The notes under the pieces were generated by a model that did not search any database, was not told the DNA's origin, and worked only from the letters and a program-made list of their open reading frames with translations. A stretch of DNA of 64,000 nucleotides from Desulfofustis limnaeus. GTDB taxonomy: Bacteria; Desulfobacterota; Desulfobulbia; Desulfobulbales; Desulfocapsaceae. Shown here one piece after another: positions 1,588-11,795 of the stretch (the stretch's first letter is position 1; each line of letters starts with the position of its first letter). A program made the position numbers and the translations under genes. Location: assembly GCF_023169885.1 (NCBI RefSeq), contig NZ_AP025516.1, positions 3,141,501 to 3,205,500 of the forward strand, read 5' to 3'.

Positions 1588-3513
1588 ATGCCAGAATCAT
1601 CCCGTCCAGACGCAAGCCGCCACTCATTCTATCAGGGTAAACATATCCTCGTCACTGGAGCCTCCGGCGGTCTCGGTTCGGCGCTCATGCGCCGGCTCGT
1701 TGAACCGGCGGCCGTGCTCGTCCTGCACGCCCGCCTGGAGCAGCATCTCGAGACAGTAGTGTCGTCTCTGCCGCACCGCGATAAAATTATTCCCCTGGCC
1801 GCCGACCTCTCCGTGCCCGGAGAGGCGGCAGCGCTTGCCAAACGGGCACTGGCCGCCGCCGGGCGCATCGACCTGCTGGTCAACAATGCCGGCATCGGCT
1901 ACTTCGCCCTGATGGAAGAGACCGAGGAAGAGAGGATCCGCCATCTCTTCGAGGTCAATACGTTCTCACCCCTGATGCTGATCCAGGAATTGCTCCCGTC
2001 GATGATCAGGCGTGGTTCCGGACGCATCGCCAACATCGTCTCCAGTGCCGGCAGGGTGCCGATACCGACGGTTGGGGTCTATGGCGGCAGCAAGTCGGCC
2101 CTGGCGGTGATGGCCAACACCATGCGCCTCGAGTTGGAGCCGAAAGGGATCGACATCGTCAACATCTATCCGGGCACCATCAATAACTCCTTCGAGCGAA
2201 ACGCCATGCGGGAGTCCGATCGCCCCGGACTCTGCCCGACCGTCGATTGCGGCGATGATGACGAACTCATCGCCGAACAGGTATTGACGGCCGCCTCCGG
2301 CCCGCCCGGAGAAGTCTGGCTGGAGCGCACGGGCCGAATCATGGCCCTGGCAGCCATCGCTTGGCCCACCGTGGTGGACAATCGGCTCAAGCACCTGCGG
2401 GACAAGACGCTCAGCCAGACCGACCGCATCAAACCACCGGAATTCAGACGCTGGCGTCTGTGGCAGCTGGAATCGAGCTTTGCCTGCAATCTGCGCTGCA
2501 TCATGTGCCCCTGGGAAGGGGTCCGCCGCTCGGCTACAAACGGCGGCCACATGAGCGATCAGGTCTGGCAGGCTCTTGTTCCCTACCTCAACGAGGTGAA
2601 ATCCATCGATTTCACCGGCGGCGGTGAACCGCTGCTGCAGAAGAATCTGCTCAGTTGGATCCGACAAGCACGGACCGCCGGCTGTGAAGCCGGCTTTCTG
2701 ACCAACGGGCTCCTGCTGAACGAAGAGACGATAGAGAGTTTGCTTGACACCGGCGTTACCTGGATCGGTATCTCCCTGGACGGCGCGGACCAAGAAACCT
2801 ATGAAACGATCCGTCGCGGCTCCGATTTCGCCCGAGTCTGCGCCAATATCACCACCCTCACTTCCCGACGGATCGACCGCCGCCCTTTGGTCATGATCAA
2901 CTTCGTCATCATGACCGGCAATCATCAGCAACTGGAGAAGATGATCGACCTGGCCGAACGGCTCGGGGTCGACCAAGTGAACTTCAAACAATGCGACGTG
3001 ATCCGGGGCAACCACGGGAAAACCTTCGGCCTGTTCGCCGACCGCGAGACCAAACAGATACGCCAGTTACAAAAAGCCCTCAAAAAGGCCGAGCGGCGAG
3101 CCCGCAAACGTGGCATCCGTACCACGTCCTTTTCCTTCACCCCGGAGGAGATGCCGGTCTGCGATCAGGACCCGCGAGACTCGCTGTTCATTCGCCATGA
3201 CGGGACCGTCGCCCCGTGCATCAATCTGGCCATCAGCGGCCCCTCGAGCTTTTTCGGCCGAGATGTCACGTTTCCCAGTGTTCATTACGGCCGTTTACCC
3301 GATATGAGCCTTGACGAGATCTGGCAGAGCGACGCCTGCATCTTCTATCGACGCCGATTCGAGCAACGGGTGCAGGCCCATGACGGCTCCCTGGCGGCGG
3401 CCGACATCGGTCACGACCTGATTAAGATGAAGGAGGCCTTCGCCGCTGCCGTCGAGGCCATGCCGGAGGCGCCGGAAGGGTGCCGGACTTGCCATTACCT
3501 CTACGATGTGTAA
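1588..3513 (+). CDS. Fusion of short-chain dehydrogenase and radical SAM/SPASM-like enzyme
   Basis: 641 residues in one uninterrupted frame. The N-terminal half (about 10-265) is a classical SDR: TGASGGLG nucleotide-binding loop, NNAGIG, a Ser in VSSAG and the YGGSK catalytic Tyr/Lys. The C-terminal half (about 285-641) is a radical SAM domain with the cluster motif CNLRCIMC near residue 300, the GGGEPLL motif of the SAM-binding strand, and a C-terminal Cys-containing region (CDQDP...APCINL...CRTCHYLYDV) like a SPASM or twitch auxiliary-cluster domain. The two activities are normally on separate proteins, so the fusion suggests sequential steps on one substrate, with the radical SAM half oxidising or rearranging and the SDR half handling a carbonyl or alcohol. 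The substrate cannot be inferred. A histidine phosphatase follows 99 bases downstream. Confidence 0.85.
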   Translation: MPESSRPDASRHSFYQGKHILVTGASGGLGSALMRRLVEPAAVLVLHARLEQHLETVVSSLPHRDKIIPLAADLSVPGEAAALAKRALAAAGRIDLLVNNAGIGYFALMEETEEERIRHLFEVNTFSPLMLIQELLPSMIRRGSGRIANIVSSAGRVPIPTVGVYGGSKSALAVMANTMRLELEPKGIDIVNIYPGTINNSFERNAMRESDRPGLCPTVDCGDDDELIAEQVLTAASGPPGEVWLERTGRIMALAAIAWPTVVDNRLKHLRDKTLSQTDRIKPPEFRRWRLWQLESSFACNLRCIMCPWEGVRRSATNGGHMSDQVWQALVPYLNEVKSIDFTGGGEPLLQKNLLSWIRQARTAGCEAGFLTNGLLLNEETIESLLDTGVTWIGISLDGADQETYETIRRGSDFARVCANITTLTSRRIDRRPLVMINFVIMTGNHQQLEKMIDLAERLGVDQVNFKQCDVIRGNHGKTFGLFADRETKQIRQLQKALKKAERRARKRGIRTTSFSFTPEEMPVCDQDPRDSLFIRHDGTVAPCINLAISGPSSFFGRDVTFPSVHYGRLPDMSLDEIWQSDACIFYRRRFEQRVQAHDGSLAAADIGHDLIKMKEAFAAAVEAMPEAPEGCRTCHYLYDV

Positions 3514-4504: not shown

Positions 4505-5338
4505 TCAGACGACCAGCGACAGTCCGGCGTGGCCGCGCAGTACCTGACAGCTCAGCTGCCGCTCAAGATAATCCACGGCTGCATCGCCGGTACAATGACA
4601 GGCCACCAACCGCTCAATCTGCAAATCGTTGAGCGCTGCCACGGTCTTTTCCAGGCGTTCCTGGCCGGCATGGAGGAGGTGGAGCCCCCCGATGATCGTA
4701 TGGATCCGCCGCTCGCCGGTGATCTCCATGATCGCCTCGGCGGTGTTGACGATGCCCGCATGGGCACAGCCGACACAGATCACCAACCCTGTATCGCAGC
4801 GAAGCCACATGGCGATGTCGTCATCGATCAGATCCGGTCGCGACCCCGATTGATCAAAGAAATAAGGGGCGCCGGGGTCCTCGAACGTGGTTTTTCGGGG
4901 AATCGGACCGGTAATGCCGATGTCTTCGGTCATCGAGATCGGCCGCGTCAGCCAGCAGATCCGTTCCTCGGGCAACCGGTCCAGGGACTGCATGGATAAT
5001 TCCGGCATTCGCACCGGCTCGATGTTTTTTCCTTGCCGCAATACATAACGGGGCTGGAGGGCTGCCTGATGAATATAGACACGAGCGCCGACAGCGCGTT
5101 CCAAAACAGGGGCAATTCCGCCGGTGTGATCGTAGTGGCCGTGACTCACGACCAGGTCGGTGACCCGCGCCAAGTCGAAACCGAGGGCCTCGCTGTTGGG
5201 TAGCAAGCCCTTACTTTCACCGGTGTCGAAGAGGATGACCCGTTCACCGGACTCAAGCCACAGAGCATAGCCGTGCTCGGCGACCAGGCCGTCGGCAGCC
5301 CGGTTGTCGACCAGCACGGTCAGTTTTGTCGTTGTCAT
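4505..5338 (-). CDS. MBL-fold metallohydrolase (MJ0296-like)
   Basis: 277 residues from an ATG that overlaps the stop of the upstream gene (ATGA), which selects this start over a longer one. It carries the metallo-beta-lactamase signature SHGHYDHTGG (about residues 67-76), an early DTG motif, a CVGCAHAG loop supplying the next metal ligand, GGLHLL and a terminal HC segment. The arrangement resembles the MBL family annotated as 7,8-dihydropterin-6-methyl-4-(beta-D-ribofuranosyl)-aminobenzene-5'-phosphate synthase relatives, whose bacterial roles are mostly unknown. Translationally coupled to a membrane-anchored IscU/NifU-N-like protein. Confidence 0.8.
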   Translation of the reverse strand: MTTTKLTVLVDNRAADGLVAEHGYALWLESGERVILFDTGESKGLLPNSEALGFDLARVTDLVVSHGHYDHTGGIAPVLERAVGARVYIHQAALQPRYVLRQGKNIEPVRMPELSMQSLDRLPEERICWLTRPISMTEDIGITGPIPRKTTFEDPGAPYFFDQSGSRPDLIDDDIAMWLRCDTGLVICVGCAHAGIVNTAEAIMEITGERRIHTIIGGLHLLHAGQERLEKTVAALNDLQIERLVACHCTGDAAVDYLERQLSCQVLRGHAGLSLVV

Positions 5339-5808
5339 ATCTGCAGTTCCTCGCCGCGCTCTGCCGCCGATTGCTGCGGGGCAGCGTTTTTCGGCGGATT
5401 GGCGTGTGTTTGTTGATCCTTCAGGTAATTCTTTATCGCCTGTTGCATGGTGGTTTCGGCTAGCTGGGCGCAATGCAGATGCGACTCGGGGAGACTGCCC
5501 ACTTCCTCGATCACATCCATCATGGTGACTTTTGCCAGGCGCTGCACCTCTTTTCCGTAAGCCAGGCGGGCTGCGGCATCCACACAACTCCGGCTGGTGG
5601 CACAGCCGTCGGTCCAGGCGTGGGTCTCGACTACCCGGTCCTGGTGAATCTTGAAGGCCAGTTCCATGGTATCACCGCAGTTACCGGTGATGCGAGCATG
5701 AGCATCCGGATCCGTCATGGTCGACGAAAAGAAATAGCTCAGCCCATACCAGACCGCCACAAAAGCGAAAAGAACCCCAACCAGAACCAGAAAACCACCC
5801 AGAGTCAT
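5335..5808 (-). CDS. Membrane-anchored IscU/NifU N-domain-like protein
   Basis: 157 residues. One hydrophobic segment at about residues 4-28 (LVLVGVLFAFVAVWYGLSYFF) is followed by an IscU/NifU N-terminal type domain. The three cysteines expected of an iron-sulfur scaffold can be placed: GNCGDTMEL (about 43-50), DGCATS (about 68-73) and HLHCAQLAE (about 112-120). The C-terminus is low complexity and rich in Gln and Ala. Known IscU-like scaffolds are soluble, so the anchor is unusual. The stop overlaps the ATG of the MBL-fold gene, so the two are translationally coupled. Confidence 0.75.
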   Translation of the reverse strand: MTLGGFLVLVGVLFAFVAVWYGLSYFFSSTMTDPDAHARITGNCGDTMELAFKIHQDRVVETHAWTDGCATSRSCVDAAARLAYGKEVQRLAKVTMMDVIEEVGSLPESHLHCAQLAETTMQQAIKNYLKDQQTHANPPKNAAPQQSAAERGEELQI

Positions 5809-6253: not shown

Positions 6254-6676
6254 ATCGCCTGTAACCATGTGATTGTGAGTGGCTGTATGACCAATCTCGC
6301 TTCTGAACATATGCCCAATTGAGGAGGTTGCTATACTACATCTCCACCGCTTCCCTGTCAACGACTGTTGGTCGCCACTACAGTCCGTCGTATCAAGCCC
6401 ACGAACCTACCACACTGTGTTATTGATAATTTTTATCAAATGAGTTTATCTCCCATGTGGTGCAGGTTGCAAAGAGCGCTATCTCTGCATCATGCTCGTT
6501 TGCTGACGATTCGCTTCCCGCCCGGTCTTTTTGAGGCAGTCAAGCCGGCGGCCGGGCCCCGGATAGACGGATCGTCACGCAGGTGAAGGAAGCACGCTTC
6601 CGGCTGGCACTTGTCCGCCGGGGGCGATCGGTCGCGCCCGGAAGGCGTGACATGAATCTTTTCCGAGGAGGCGTCT
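6254..6676. other. Intergenic region between divergent genes
   Basis: About 420 bases between the divergent hypothetical gene and the selenoperoxiredoxin. It holds a perfect 17-bp inverted repeat (listed separately) and a GC-rich stretch at about 6535-6600. The short open frames here have no plausible start context or composition and I see no RNA gene. Confidence 0.5.
6423..6439. promoter_or_regulatory. Candidate Fur/PerR-like operator
   Basis: TTGATAATTTTTATCAA is a perfect 7-bp inverted repeat with a 3-base spacer in an AT-rich patch between divergent genes, about 240 bases upstream of the selenoperoxiredoxin. Its AT-rich GATAAT/TTATC half-sites resemble Fur-family boxes. Assignment to a peroxide- or iron-responsive regulator is an inference. 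Confidence 0.4.
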
Positions 6677-7396
6677 ATGGCGCAAGAAGAACAAGTAGGC
6701 TGTGCCCGGCCAACCGGAGGAGTGGTTGGGGAACCGGAGCCCGAAAAGGCGGCACCGGCAAAGGACAAACCAGTTAAGGAGAAACGTATGCTTACCGTTG
6801 GTCAGAAAGTGCCGGATTTTTCCGCTCCCGGCTATCACAAGGGTTCTTTTGTTACTATCAAGCTGTCAGATTATCTGGGTAAGTGGGTCGTGCTCTGCTT
6901 TTATCCCGGTGACTTCACCTTCGTCTGAGCTACCGAGATTTCGGCGGTCGCCGAAAAATTTCCGGAATTTCAGAAGCTTGGTGTAGAGGTCTTATCTATG
7001 TCCATCGACTCCATGTTCGTGCACAAGATGTGGGATGACGACGAATTGAGCAAGATGGTCGCAGGCGGTATTCCGTTCCCCATGCTCTCCGATGCCGGCG
7101 GCAAAGTCGGCACCGCCTACGGTGTCTTTGACGAGAATGCCGGGGTTGAGGCACGGGGCCGGTTCATCATCGATCCGGATGGTGTTCTGCAGGGATTCGA
7201 GGTCTTGACGCCGCCCGTCGGCAGGAATGTCAACGAAACCATCCGCCAGATCCAGGCATTTCAACTGATCCGGGAGACCAAAGGCGCCGAGGCGACACCG
7301 TCCGGCTGGCGACCCGGGAAGAAGACTCTGAAGCCGGGTATCAATTTGGTAGGAAAAGTCTGGCAGGAGTGGAAGACCTCCCAAGCCTTCGATTAA
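6677..7396 (+). CDS. Selenocysteine peroxiredoxin (AhpC/1-Cys-like), in-frame TGA read as Sec
   Basis: 239 residues when TGA at 6926-6928 is read as Sec84. The context is PGDFTFV-Sec-ATE, where the peroxiredoxin family has the peroxidatic Cys (FTFVCPTE), and the frame continues for 155 more residues of clear family sequence. A SECIS-type hairpin follows. The C-terminal position where AhpC has its resolving Cys (CPxxW) reads TPSGW, so a thiol partner such as glutathione, thioredoxin or Cys9 of the N-terminal extension would be needed. The role is reduction of hydrogen or organic peroxides in an anaerobe. Two starts have good ribosome sites: 6677 (GAGGAGG) and 6788 (AAGGAG), the latter giving a form without the 37-residue Pro/Ala/Lys-rich leader. 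Confidence 0.9.
6939..6956 (+). promoter_or_regulatory. SECIS element of the selenoperoxiredoxin
   Basis: TTTCGGC-GGTC-GCCGAAA: a perfect 7-bp stem with a GGUC apical loop, starting 10 bases after the TGA, so the loop begins 17 bases downstream. This spacing and the loop guanines match bacterial SECIS elements recognised by SelB, such as that of E. coli fdhF. Confidence 0.85.
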
Positions 7397-9472: not shown

Positions 9473-9898
9473 ATGCCGTATCTGTTGCTTACCCTGTCCG
9501 CCCTGTTCTGGTCTGGAAATTTCGTGATCAGCCGTGGCATGCACGCCGAGATTCCGCCGCTCGGTCTGTCTTTCTGGCGTTGGCTGGTGGCATTGCTGAT
9601 CCTCTGCCTGTTCGGTGCCCAACACCTGATTGCTCAGCGCCACGTCGCCCGCCGGCATTGGCGCTTTATCGTTGTGCAGGGGCTGCTCGGTGTCGCCGGC
9701 TTCAACACCCTCATCTATCTGGCCATGCAGACCACCACCGCCATCAACGCCGTTCTGGTCAACTCCTGCATCCCGGTACTCATCGCCGTCTGTTCCTGGG
9801 TCATGTTCCGCGAGGCCTTGAGCCTGCGGCAAGGCGTTGGGGTACTGCTGTCTCTTGGTGGCGTGGTGCTGATCATGGTCAAGGGGAGTTGGGAGTAC

Positions 9899-9907
9899 CT
9901 CCGGGCC
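9899..9907. repeat. Left copy of 9-bp target-site duplication (CTCCGGGCC)
   Basis: CTCCGGGCC directly precedes the left inverted repeat of the IS element and recurs right after its right end at 11234-11242. Excluding one copy restores the EamA frame. Confidence 0.9.
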
Positions 9908-11233
9908 CACTGGTGTCCCAACGTTGATTGAAGATCAGCGATTAACTGTTTGATAATAATATATATTTCAAACAAAATGCCGGTTAACGATTTGAAATTC
10001 GCAGCTCTCTGCGTTACTCCCTCTCAAACTACCAAGAGGGGGGCCGGCAATGAACTCAGGCAAATTGGTCTTCTCGCAAGTGATCGATCACTTGCCCCTG
10101 CATCATCTGCGTCAGTGTATTTCTCGCTACCGCGGCAATCGCAAAGTCAAGCAGTTCAGCTGCTACGACCAATATCTCAGCATGGTATTCGCTCAACTCA
10201 CCTATCGGGAAAGTCTACGCGATATCGAAGCCTGTCTTCGAGCCCAAAAAAGCAAGTTGTATCATATGGGCATCCGCGGCGGTATATCGAGAAACACCCT
10301 CGCCAATGCCAACAAGGTAAGAGACTGGCGCATCTATGCCGACTTTGCTCAAGTTCTTATCGCCATTGCTCGAAACCTCTACAGCAAAGACGATTTCGGG
10401 ATCGAATTGGACGAAACGGTCTACGCGCTCGATTCCACTACCATCGATCTCAGTCTCACAACATTTCCTTGGGCCCATTTCCGTTCAACCAAAGCAGCCG
10501 TCAAGCTTCATACGCTGTTGGATCTGCGTGGCAATATCCCGACATTTCTGTCGATCAGCGATGGCAAAGTGCACGATGTCAACATCTTGGACGAACTGAT
10601 CCCCGAGCCAGGCAGCTTTTATGTCATGGATCGTGGCTATCTGGACTTTTCTCGTCTTTATGCCCTGAACCAGTGGGCCTCCTTTTTTGTCATTCGAGCA
10701 AAATCAAACTTCAGATTCGCTCGCATCTATTCTCACCACGTGGACAAGGATACCGGCTTGCGGTGCGATCAGACGGTTCGTCTCACTGGTTTCTATTCGG
10801 CCAAGGATTATCCGGCCCCCTTGCGCCGAGTGAAGTTTTACGATGCCGAAACCGACAACATCCTCGTTTTTCTGACCAACAACTTTACCCTCCCTGCACA
10901 GACCATCGCCGATCTTTATCGGTGCCGCTGGCAGGTGGAGCTGTTTTTCAAATGGATCAAGCAGCACCTGCGAATAAAATCGTTTTTCGGCACCTCAGAG
11001 AATGCGGTCAAAACCCAGATCTGGATAGCTGTTTCAGTATACGTTGCCGTAGCGATCATCAAAAAACAGTATCGAATTGAGGCCAGCCTGTACACAATGC
11101 TACAGATTTTGAGCGTAACCGTATTTGAAAAAGTTCCACTATTACAAGTGCTTGATCAAGGCGATCACAAATCCACCCCGAGCGATACGGGCAAGCAGTT
11201 AAGATTATTCGATTAAACGTTGGGACACTAGTG
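9908..11233 (+). mobile_element. IS4-family insertion sequence, 1326 bp, apparently intact
   Basis: Bounded by 18-base terminal inverted repeats, CACTGGTGTCCCAACGTT at the left (9908-9925) and the same with one difference (CACTAGTG...) on the opposite strand at the right (11216-11233). It is flanked by a 9-bp duplication and contains one full-length transposase whose stop codon ends inside the right repeat. Size, repeat layout and transposase type fit the IS4 family, with the DUF4372 N-terminus typical of the ISPepr1-type subgroup. Confidence 0.93.
10050..11216 (+). CDS. IS4-family DDE transposase
   Basis: 388 residues. The N-terminus MNSGKLVFSQVIDHLP is a DUF4372-type domain, followed by the DDE catalytic core: first Asp in YALDSTTIDLS (about 131-140), second in YVMDRGYLDFSR (about 192-200), and the YREK signature YRCRWQVELFFKWIK (about 291-305) with the catalytic Glu. 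It would catalyse cut-and-paste transposition of its own element. The frame is intact and the start is preceded by a purine-rich AGAGGGGGG. Base composition is less GC-rich than the neighbours, as expected for a newcomer. Confidence 0.95.
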   Translation: MNSGKLVFSQVIDHLPLHHLRQCISRYRGNRKVKQFSCYDQYLSMVFAQLTYRESLRDIEACLRAQKSKLYHMGIRGGISRNTLANANKVRDWRIYADFAQVLIAIARNLYSKDDFGIELDETVYALDSTTIDLSLTTFPWAHFRSTKAAVKLHTLLDLRGNIPTFLSISDGKVHDVNILDELIPEPGSFYVMDRGYLDFSRLYALNQWASFFVIRAKSNFRFARIYSHHVDKDTGLRCDQTVRLTGFYSAKDYPAPLRRVKFYDAETDNILVFLTNNFTLPAQTIADLYRCRWQVELFFKWIKQHLRIKSFFGTSENAVKTQIWIAVSVYVAVAIIKKQYRIEASLYTMLQILSVTVFEKVPLLQVLDQGDHKSTPSDTGKQLRLFD

Positions 11234-11242
11234 CTCCGGGCC
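11234..11242. repeat. Right copy of 9-bp target-site duplication (CTCCGGGCC)
   Basis: Identical to 9899-9907 and adjacent to the right end of the IS element; the EamA coding sequence resumes in frame immediately after it. Confidence 0.9.
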
Positions 11243-11795
11243 GTTTCCTTCAACCCCGGCGATCTGCTGGTGCTGGTCGCCGCCCTGCTCTGGGCCCTCT
11301 ATTCCACCAACCTGAAACGCTACCCCCGCGAAATGCACCCCTTTGCCTACCAGACAGGAATCGTCATCAGCGGCCTGGCGGTGCTGCTCCCCTGCTATCT
11401 CTATGAATTGTCCCTGGGCAAAACCATGGAGTTCGGCCTCCCGACCCTGCTGACTATCATCTATGTCGCCCTGTTCGCGTCGATCCTTGCCTTCATCTTC
11501 TGGAACCGGGCGGTACGGACCGTCGGTCCGAACAAGGCGGGGCCCTTCATTCATCTGATGCCGGTCTTCTCCACCCTGCTGGCCGTGGTATTTCTCGACG
11601 AGACTATCGAACCCTTCCACCTGGCGGGCATCGCCCTGATCTTCACCGGCATCGCCATGACCACCATGTATGTCCAGACGAGACGCTGACCTCCCCCCTC
11701 AGCATTGCAATTATCGCTGTATTCTGGTACCGATACGGTAATCGGCTTAGCCGGCCGGTTATCCATCTTTCGTCATCCAGCACAAGGAGTTCATC

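Follow-up and report, generated by a model that had tools for sequence, protein, structure and literature searches.

Two conserved start signals and a candidate resolving thiol on the leader of a PrxU selenoperoxiredoxin in Desulfofustis limnaeus

A gene for a selenoperoxiredoxin was identified in a stretch of 64,000 nucleotides from Desulfofustis limnaeus (contig NZ_AP025516.1, positions 3,141,501 to 3,205,500 of the forward strand), which is called the window here and belongs to a host genome of a single contig of 4.23 Mb. The locus raises two connected questions: which thiol could resolve the oxidised selenocysteine (Sec) of a protein that lacks the usual C-terminal resolving cysteine, and whether both of its in-frame start codons are used.

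The gene, its selenocysteine and its surroundings

The gene at 6677-7396 is a member of PrxU, a known family of selenoperoxiredoxins, which confirms the observation of the first-pass annotation. The open reading frame was found as described there, with a start ATG at 6677, an in-frame ATG at 6788 (Met38) and a stop TAA at 7394-7396, and the peroxidatic site indeed carries an in-frame TGA at codon 84 in a PxxxTxxU context. The features discussed below are collected in Table 1.

Table 1. Features of the prxU locus, in window coordinates
Feature	Position	Strand	Basis
Shine-Dalgarno GAGGAGG of the long form	6665..6671	+	Sequence; anti-SD duplex -11.8 kcal/mol
prxU long form, 239 aa, Sec84	6677..7396	+	ORF and NF040737 profile match
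Leader, 37 residues; motif GCARPTGGVVGE, then variable linker	6677..6787	+	Alignment, structure model
Cys9, proposed resolving thiol	6701..6703	+	Invariant in alignment
Internal Shine-Dalgarno AAGGAG	6776..6781	+	Comparative sequence; duplex -9.2 kcal/mol
Candidate internal start ATG (Met38); short form 202 aa, own-numbered Sec47	6788..6790	+	Comparative sequence
Cys74, conserved	6896..6898	+	Alignment
UGA read as Sec84, peroxidatic residue in PxxxTxxU	6926..6928	+	ORF reading and alignment
SECIS hairpin, GGUC apex	6939..6956	+	Covariation
TPSGW at the AhpC resolving CPxxW site; Cys replaced by Thr207	7295..7309	+	Alignment

The NCBIfam PrxU model NF040737 matched the protein with 411 bits (cut-off 270), aligning residues 7-235 to positions 2-232 of the 233-position profile; since the match begins at residue 7, the leader is part of the curated family. 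The name of this model, thioredoxin-dependent peroxidase, is a name only, and the activity is putative for this protein. PrxU and AhpC models gave the top NCBIfam matches, with the AhpC cut-off being missed (TIGR03137, 193.8 bits against 272). Of 395 genomes sampled from the phylum, 133 contain a match to NF040737, leader-bearing and leaderless members taken together. The gene also occurs elsewhere in the genus (G026), with 86% identity in Desulfofustis glycolicus. The predicted monomer (mean pLDDT 85.7; blocks from residue 41 onward 81-98) has the AhpC/Prx1 fold, its best PDB matches being typical 2-Cys peroxiredoxins (PrxA, PRDX2 and AhpC chains) with a TM score by target length of about 0.9. 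The window protein thus shares the fold and the PxxxTxxC/U site with the typical 2-Cys AhpC/Prx1 proteins, but these have a C-terminal resolving Cys where it has Thr207, and it differs further by its N-terminal leader Cys and by Sec in place of Cys.

Sec insertion was assessed on the hairpin downstream of the UGA codon and on the host machinery. Folding of the query stretch alone was unremarkable (z -1.46, with 14 of 200 shuffles equally good) and too weak a guide, so covariation was used instead, on 31 family sequences located after the Sec codon and chosen for diversity. In these, the eight-pair hairpin had 96% of its cells paired against a shuffled mean of 75.5%, its covariation score of 0.591 (shuffled mean 0.179) was reached by none of 500 shuffles, and 60 cells were changed on both sides against 19.9 after shuffling. 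Sliding the partner strand along destroyed the pairing. Double-change pairs and further pair types showed no excess over shuffles in the same 31 sequences (221 and 145 of 500). Across all 82 sequences, standard pairs occupied 636 of 656 cells, and the apex read AGUU in 43, GGUC in 38 and GGUU in one. The hairpin of the 'textbook GGUC-loop SECIS' proposed earlier is therefore upheld by covariation, its GGUC apex being one of two family solutions. The host genome encodes a tRNA-Sec (72.5 bits, cut-off 47) and selB (364.7 bits, cut-off 242). By its in-frame UGA followed by a covarying SECIS hairpin, the window gene is judged to be a bacterial selenoprotein gene. Elsewhere in the same genome, a locus matching AhpC-TSA with two in-frame TGA codons (L004, G000:C1:1445013-1445330) is perhaps a UxxU Prx-like selenoprotein.

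Open reading frames in the vicinity of prxU, taken from the window and from two further loci (L145 and L146), were matched against the surroundings of prxU at 72 loci, matches on the strand opposite prxU being shadows of prxU itself. Operon context was dropped as a clue: the most recurrent neighbour, an MBL-fold gene of the window, was present in 12 of the 72 loci. A scaffold-like NifU_N protein whose N-terminus is hydrophobic (5335-5808, minus strand) is encoded beside an MBL-fold gene, and MBL-fold and Mrp-like genes also lie near the prxU of Peptoclostridium acidaminophilum. At 9473-11689, a transposase (DUF4372 and DDE_Tnp_1, 10050-11216) flanked by the inverted ends GTGTCCCAACGTT and AACGTTGGGACAC lies between two EamA halves (9473-9931 and 11231-11689), so that an insertion sequence appears to split a transporter gene. 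In an open reading frame of 641 amino acids at 1588-3513, a short-chain dehydrogenase domain is joined with a radical SAM and SPASM domain.

Two start signals in one reading frame

Homologues were collected at 246 loci, 243 of them with a core match and 223 unique by their last 500 nt; these counts cover most, though not all, family members found in the sampled genomes. The leader-bearing set comprised 184 genes, of which 183 were recognised by a pattern requiring the Cys and one (L200) by eye, and it includes a distant, doubtful row (L246, 45% identity). The leaderless set of 36 was obtained from 39 rows after removal of three of low identity (L241, L244 and L245). The codon test of the internal signal was done earlier on 98 of 99 unique genes, L034 being left out as it is without the motif used.

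The linker that follows the leader motif is widely variable in sequence, and its conserved feature in the 184 leader-bearing homologues is a nucleotide signal, AAGGAGG, ahead of the ATG. Positions -15 to -9 of the Met38 codon held 1.1-1.9 bits per base in the 98 genes, against 0.1-0.6 bits for the remaining bases from -27 to -1 (except -26, with 1.03 bits); in the 184 genes the peak at -15 to -9 was 0.83-1.70 bits, with at most 0.42 elsewhere. The Glu codon within the signal was GAG in 89 of 91 cases (575 of 1811 elsewhere in the 98 genes) and the Lys codon AAG in 59 of 67 (709 of 1913 elsewhere). In some genes this Lys was swapped for Gln, Arg, Thr, Glu or Met, and GGAG stayed.

A Shine-Dalgarno (SD) match of at least 5, 6 or 7 nt precedes the in-frame ATG in 174, 154 and 108 of the 184 genes, respectively. 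Synonymous resampling (200 resamples) gave means of 89.9, 38.9 and 27.8 and maxima of 105, 51 and 39, and for other in-frame ATGs of the same genes the counts were 119, 31 and 7 of 960. The internal site compares with the upstream start, where 171, 149 and 110 of 181 genes have matches of these lengths. Among the genes with core identity below 72%, 38 of 42 retain at least 5 nt, and of the ten genes with a weak internal signal, eight keep 4 nt, only L192 and the doubtful L246 having none. The median anti-SD energy was -11.6 for the internal ATG and -5.0 for other ATGs.

The start codon itself moves with its signal. The Met38 column is occupied by another residue in 28 genes, 27 of which have a Met at most four residues upstream, and 25 of these 27 have an SD of at least 6 nt; Met makes up 20 of the 4529 residues elsewhere in leader and linker. 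Such joint shifting would be expected of a start codon and not of a structural Met. For the window gene itself, the internal anti-SD duplex is of moderate strength (-9.2 kcal/mol): it falls short of the upstream duplex (-11.8) and only slightly exceeds the one formed before an ATG further downstream (7082, -8.4), which was not taken as a start, so the case rests on the family. On these comparative data, prxU is a dual-start gene in that two conserved SD and start signals share one frame, and both sites are under selection as judged from their conservation. The first-pass proposal that two starts give two forms is strongly supported at the level of the signals, and a second protein form probably accumulates from the internal one.

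The leader cysteine and the C-terminal resolving site

The leader motif is conserved as protein. Its commonest residues in the 184 homologues are M-A-E-E-A-K-V-G-C-A-R-P-T-G-G-P-V-G-E, with the Pro after CxR present in 177 and the Gly preceding Cys in 163, the counts for the two Gly being 155 and 170. A subset of 133 of the 184 was selected by the motif C[A/T]RPTGG, which fixes these residues; in it, the Gly, Ala, Arg, Pro and Thr use every synonymous codon. Codons thus vary while residues stay, which points to selection on the protein and hence to a translated leader. The leader (GCARPTGGPVGE) appears to be under protein-level constraint, hence both starts look used.

Cys9 was invariant in 44 of 44 chosen alignment rows and is present in 184 of 184 leaders, the latter by construction because the recognition pattern requires Cys. 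A homologue lacking the leader Cys had been named as a refutation of its role; no leader-like stretch without Cys was met in 38 leaderless rows scanned with a looser pattern (L241 lying outside the scan). Use of the motif independently of prxU was considered and rejected: among 91 family genomes the DNA pattern had 32 occurrences, spread over 31 genomes and always related to prxU, with 31 of them inside prxU matches and the 32nd (G033) being the leader, linker and internal start of a prematurely ending prxU. The match at that locus (L253, G033:C176) ends after the linker and may be a pseudogene or an assembly error, as may two prxU matches in broken frames with extra stops (G086:C18:10679-11397 and G042:C23:51821-52363).

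At the C-terminal site, residues 207-211 read TPSGW and align with CPxGW of wild-type AhpC/Prx1 proteins. The absence of the resolving Cys, noted at the outset, is the family norm, TPSGW being found in 151 of 184 leader-bearing homologues. A Cys at position 207, 209 or 229 was present in 8 of 184 leader-bearing proteins against 32 of 36 leaderless relatives. Six of the eight have C207 (L034, L162, L174, L183, L188 and L198), thereby keeping both the leader Cys and the C-terminal CP Cys, and two have C229 (L201 and L204). Leader and C-terminal Cys therefore nearly exclude each other in the aligned sequences, and together with the invariance of Cys9 this supports the earlier idea of Cys9 as a substitute resolver. 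The statement that Cys9 is the only other candidate thiol did not hold, because Cys74 (VVLCFYP), conserved in 181 of 183 leader-bearing homologues, had been overlooked. The long form consequently has two thiols, Cys9 and Cys74, and the short form would have only Cys74.

The distribution of the leader was followed on a quick, unrooted tree of 120 rows, built without columns 207, 209 and 229. Three changes of the leader label are needed, two of them forced by starred branches. With only two to three independent leader changes, the coupling of leader and Cys loss cannot reach significance, and a sign test on this tree gave a median p of 1. Two leaderless proteins within a mostly leader-bearing clade (L207 and L208) carry CPAG; these close PrxU relatives constitute a natural test of a resolver swap. 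Another four leaderless proteins nested among leader-bearing rows (L215, L224, L228 and L231), which represent the other secondary loss of the leader, have no Cys besides Sec, which indicates that a resolver is not obligatory. In three of the four cases (G299, G322 and G457) the genome contains a leader-bearing copy too. A Cys-for-Sec PrxU paralogue with leader Cys, internal GGAGG and ATG was also found (L185, G374:C1:2345934-2346623), in a genome that has a Sec copy as well.

Proposed mechanism, rival readings and wider occurrence

We regard it as probable that prxU is a dual-start gene in which the resolver of the long form is Cys9 on a mobile leader and the short form is free of a resolver. 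Translation from 6677 would give a 239-residue peroxiredoxin of AhpC/Prx1 fold, the Sec84 of which would be oxidised by peroxide. Cys9, on the flexible leader with its GCARPTGG motif, would then resolve it in place of the lost C-terminal CPxxW Cys, presumably through a selenenylsulfide between Cys9 and Sec84. From the retained internal site at 6776-6790, a form of 202 residues would arise that shares the Sec site but lacks the leader thiol, resembling a 1-Cys enzyme. As in 1-Cys peroxiredoxins of the Prx6 type, no known resolver would accompany the peroxidatic residue of this short form; the long form differs from them by Cys9. By analogy with the AhpC fold, long and short forms presumably co-assemble into mixed oligomers, in which the ratio of starts would set the share of active sites with a built-in resolver, and the two forms may use different reductants. 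That start choice determines how many subunits of a single mixed oligomer bear the resolver relative to those that lack it, the detachable leader thus being a translational dial on the redox cycle, is a more tentative proposal, to which we give slightly less than even chances. In the simplest reading, on an unrooted tree that leaves the direction unproven, a leaderless ancestor would have acquired the leader together with a new start upstream, its original start being retained and its C-terminal Cys lost.

The two thiols and the two starts each permit other readings. Both forms could be made with the leader serving as a peptide by which a reductant or partner is docked or tethered, Cys9 lying in the contact and a 1-Sec peroxiredoxin being recycled by an external thiol. 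The conservation of RPTGGPVGE beyond the Cys exceeds what a bare resolver needs, the four Cys-free leaderless relatives fit as well, and the leader is disordered in the AlphaFold monomer (pLDDT below 50 for residues 7-12 and 14-35), a model that gives no information on docking at Sec84 or on a Cys9-Sec84 contact. This reading is unlikely, however, as the near-exclusion (8/184 against 32/36) and the CP of the leader-lost L207 and L208 are what a resolver swap predicts. Very unlikely is Cys74 as the resolving thiol, in a Cys74-Sec84 bond within a single chain, with leader and internal start serving something else. Cys74 occurs in 10 of 37 leaderless homologues, far fewer than among leader-bearing ones, and its position ten residues before Sec84 fits the atypical 2-Cys peroxiredoxins, in which the resolving Cys can precede the peroxidatic one by 10-15 residues (PMC7465337). 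Against it, the model places Cys74 in a core strand (70-75), and nine leaderless relatives have it alongside the C-terminal CP Cys. It does not, then, replace that Cys and seems rather to accompany the Sec site.

As to the starts, leaderless homologues begin at about Met38, and the internal AAGGAGG-ATG could have arisen as a relic of such an ancestral start, kept by chance or through a preference for K-E-x-x-M. This is highly improbable given a linker that is otherwise variable, nucleotides that hold while Lys becomes Gln, Arg, Thr, Glu or Met, the GAG bias and an ATG that changes column yet keeps its SD. The chance that the internal start alone is used and the leader remains untranslated is close to negligible: over the family as a whole, internal and upstream SDs are of similar strength (174/184 and 171/181, respectively, with at least 5 nt), but the leader amino acids are conserved while their codons vary, and those 171 upstream signals stand in front of the leader.

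Loci with leader and internal signal were found in Desulfobacterota, in a plasmid gene of Chloroflexota, in prxU of P. acidaminophilum (Bacillota) and in metagenome bins, with tentative names, of KSB1, Anaerolineae, Solibacteraceae, Neomarinimicrobiota, Krumholzibacteriia, Fibrobacter and Chitinivibrionales. The P. acidaminophilum (Eubacterium) protein is 67.8% identical to the window protein over residues 1-239 and shares its Sec site; like the window gene, it has the leader Cys in GCARP and an internal SD and ATG, but its leader continues after GCARP with KSQ, not TGG. From the annotated upstream start it has 240 amino acids and Sec84, from the internal Met 203 and Sec47. The founding description of PrxU (2001) reportedly used the numbering Sec47, that is, the internal Met, and found the enzyme thioredoxin-dependent; the Sec47 obtained here is presumably that of the published numbering. 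If the protein so described did start at the internal Met and was thioredoxin-dependent, this activity does not require the leader.

Among bacterial dual-start genes, clpB encodes a different protein and is not known to toggle an active-site residue. Bacterial clpB gives full-length and N-terminally truncated products (PMC6168691), and the human peroxiredoxin gene PRDX5 has two in-frame starts (PMC3759418), the choice of which adds or removes a mitochondrial targeting sequence, where in prxU it would be a catalytic thiol. Among the literature matches listed, none described PrxU as having an internal start or a leader thiol, most subscription papers lying outside the search; PrxU itself is known, and the putative combination of a dual start and a relocated thiol was absent from those matches.

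Annotation usually assigns one start per gene, and the P. acidaminophilum record gives the upstream one only, so a second product would go unseen. If the proposed reading is true, PrxU expressed from the internal Met left out a conserved thiol. It would also add a position at which AhpC-type peroxiredoxins can carry their resolving residue, one that is N-terminal and start-controlled, and would mean that a catalytic thiol can relocate while the old start site persists.
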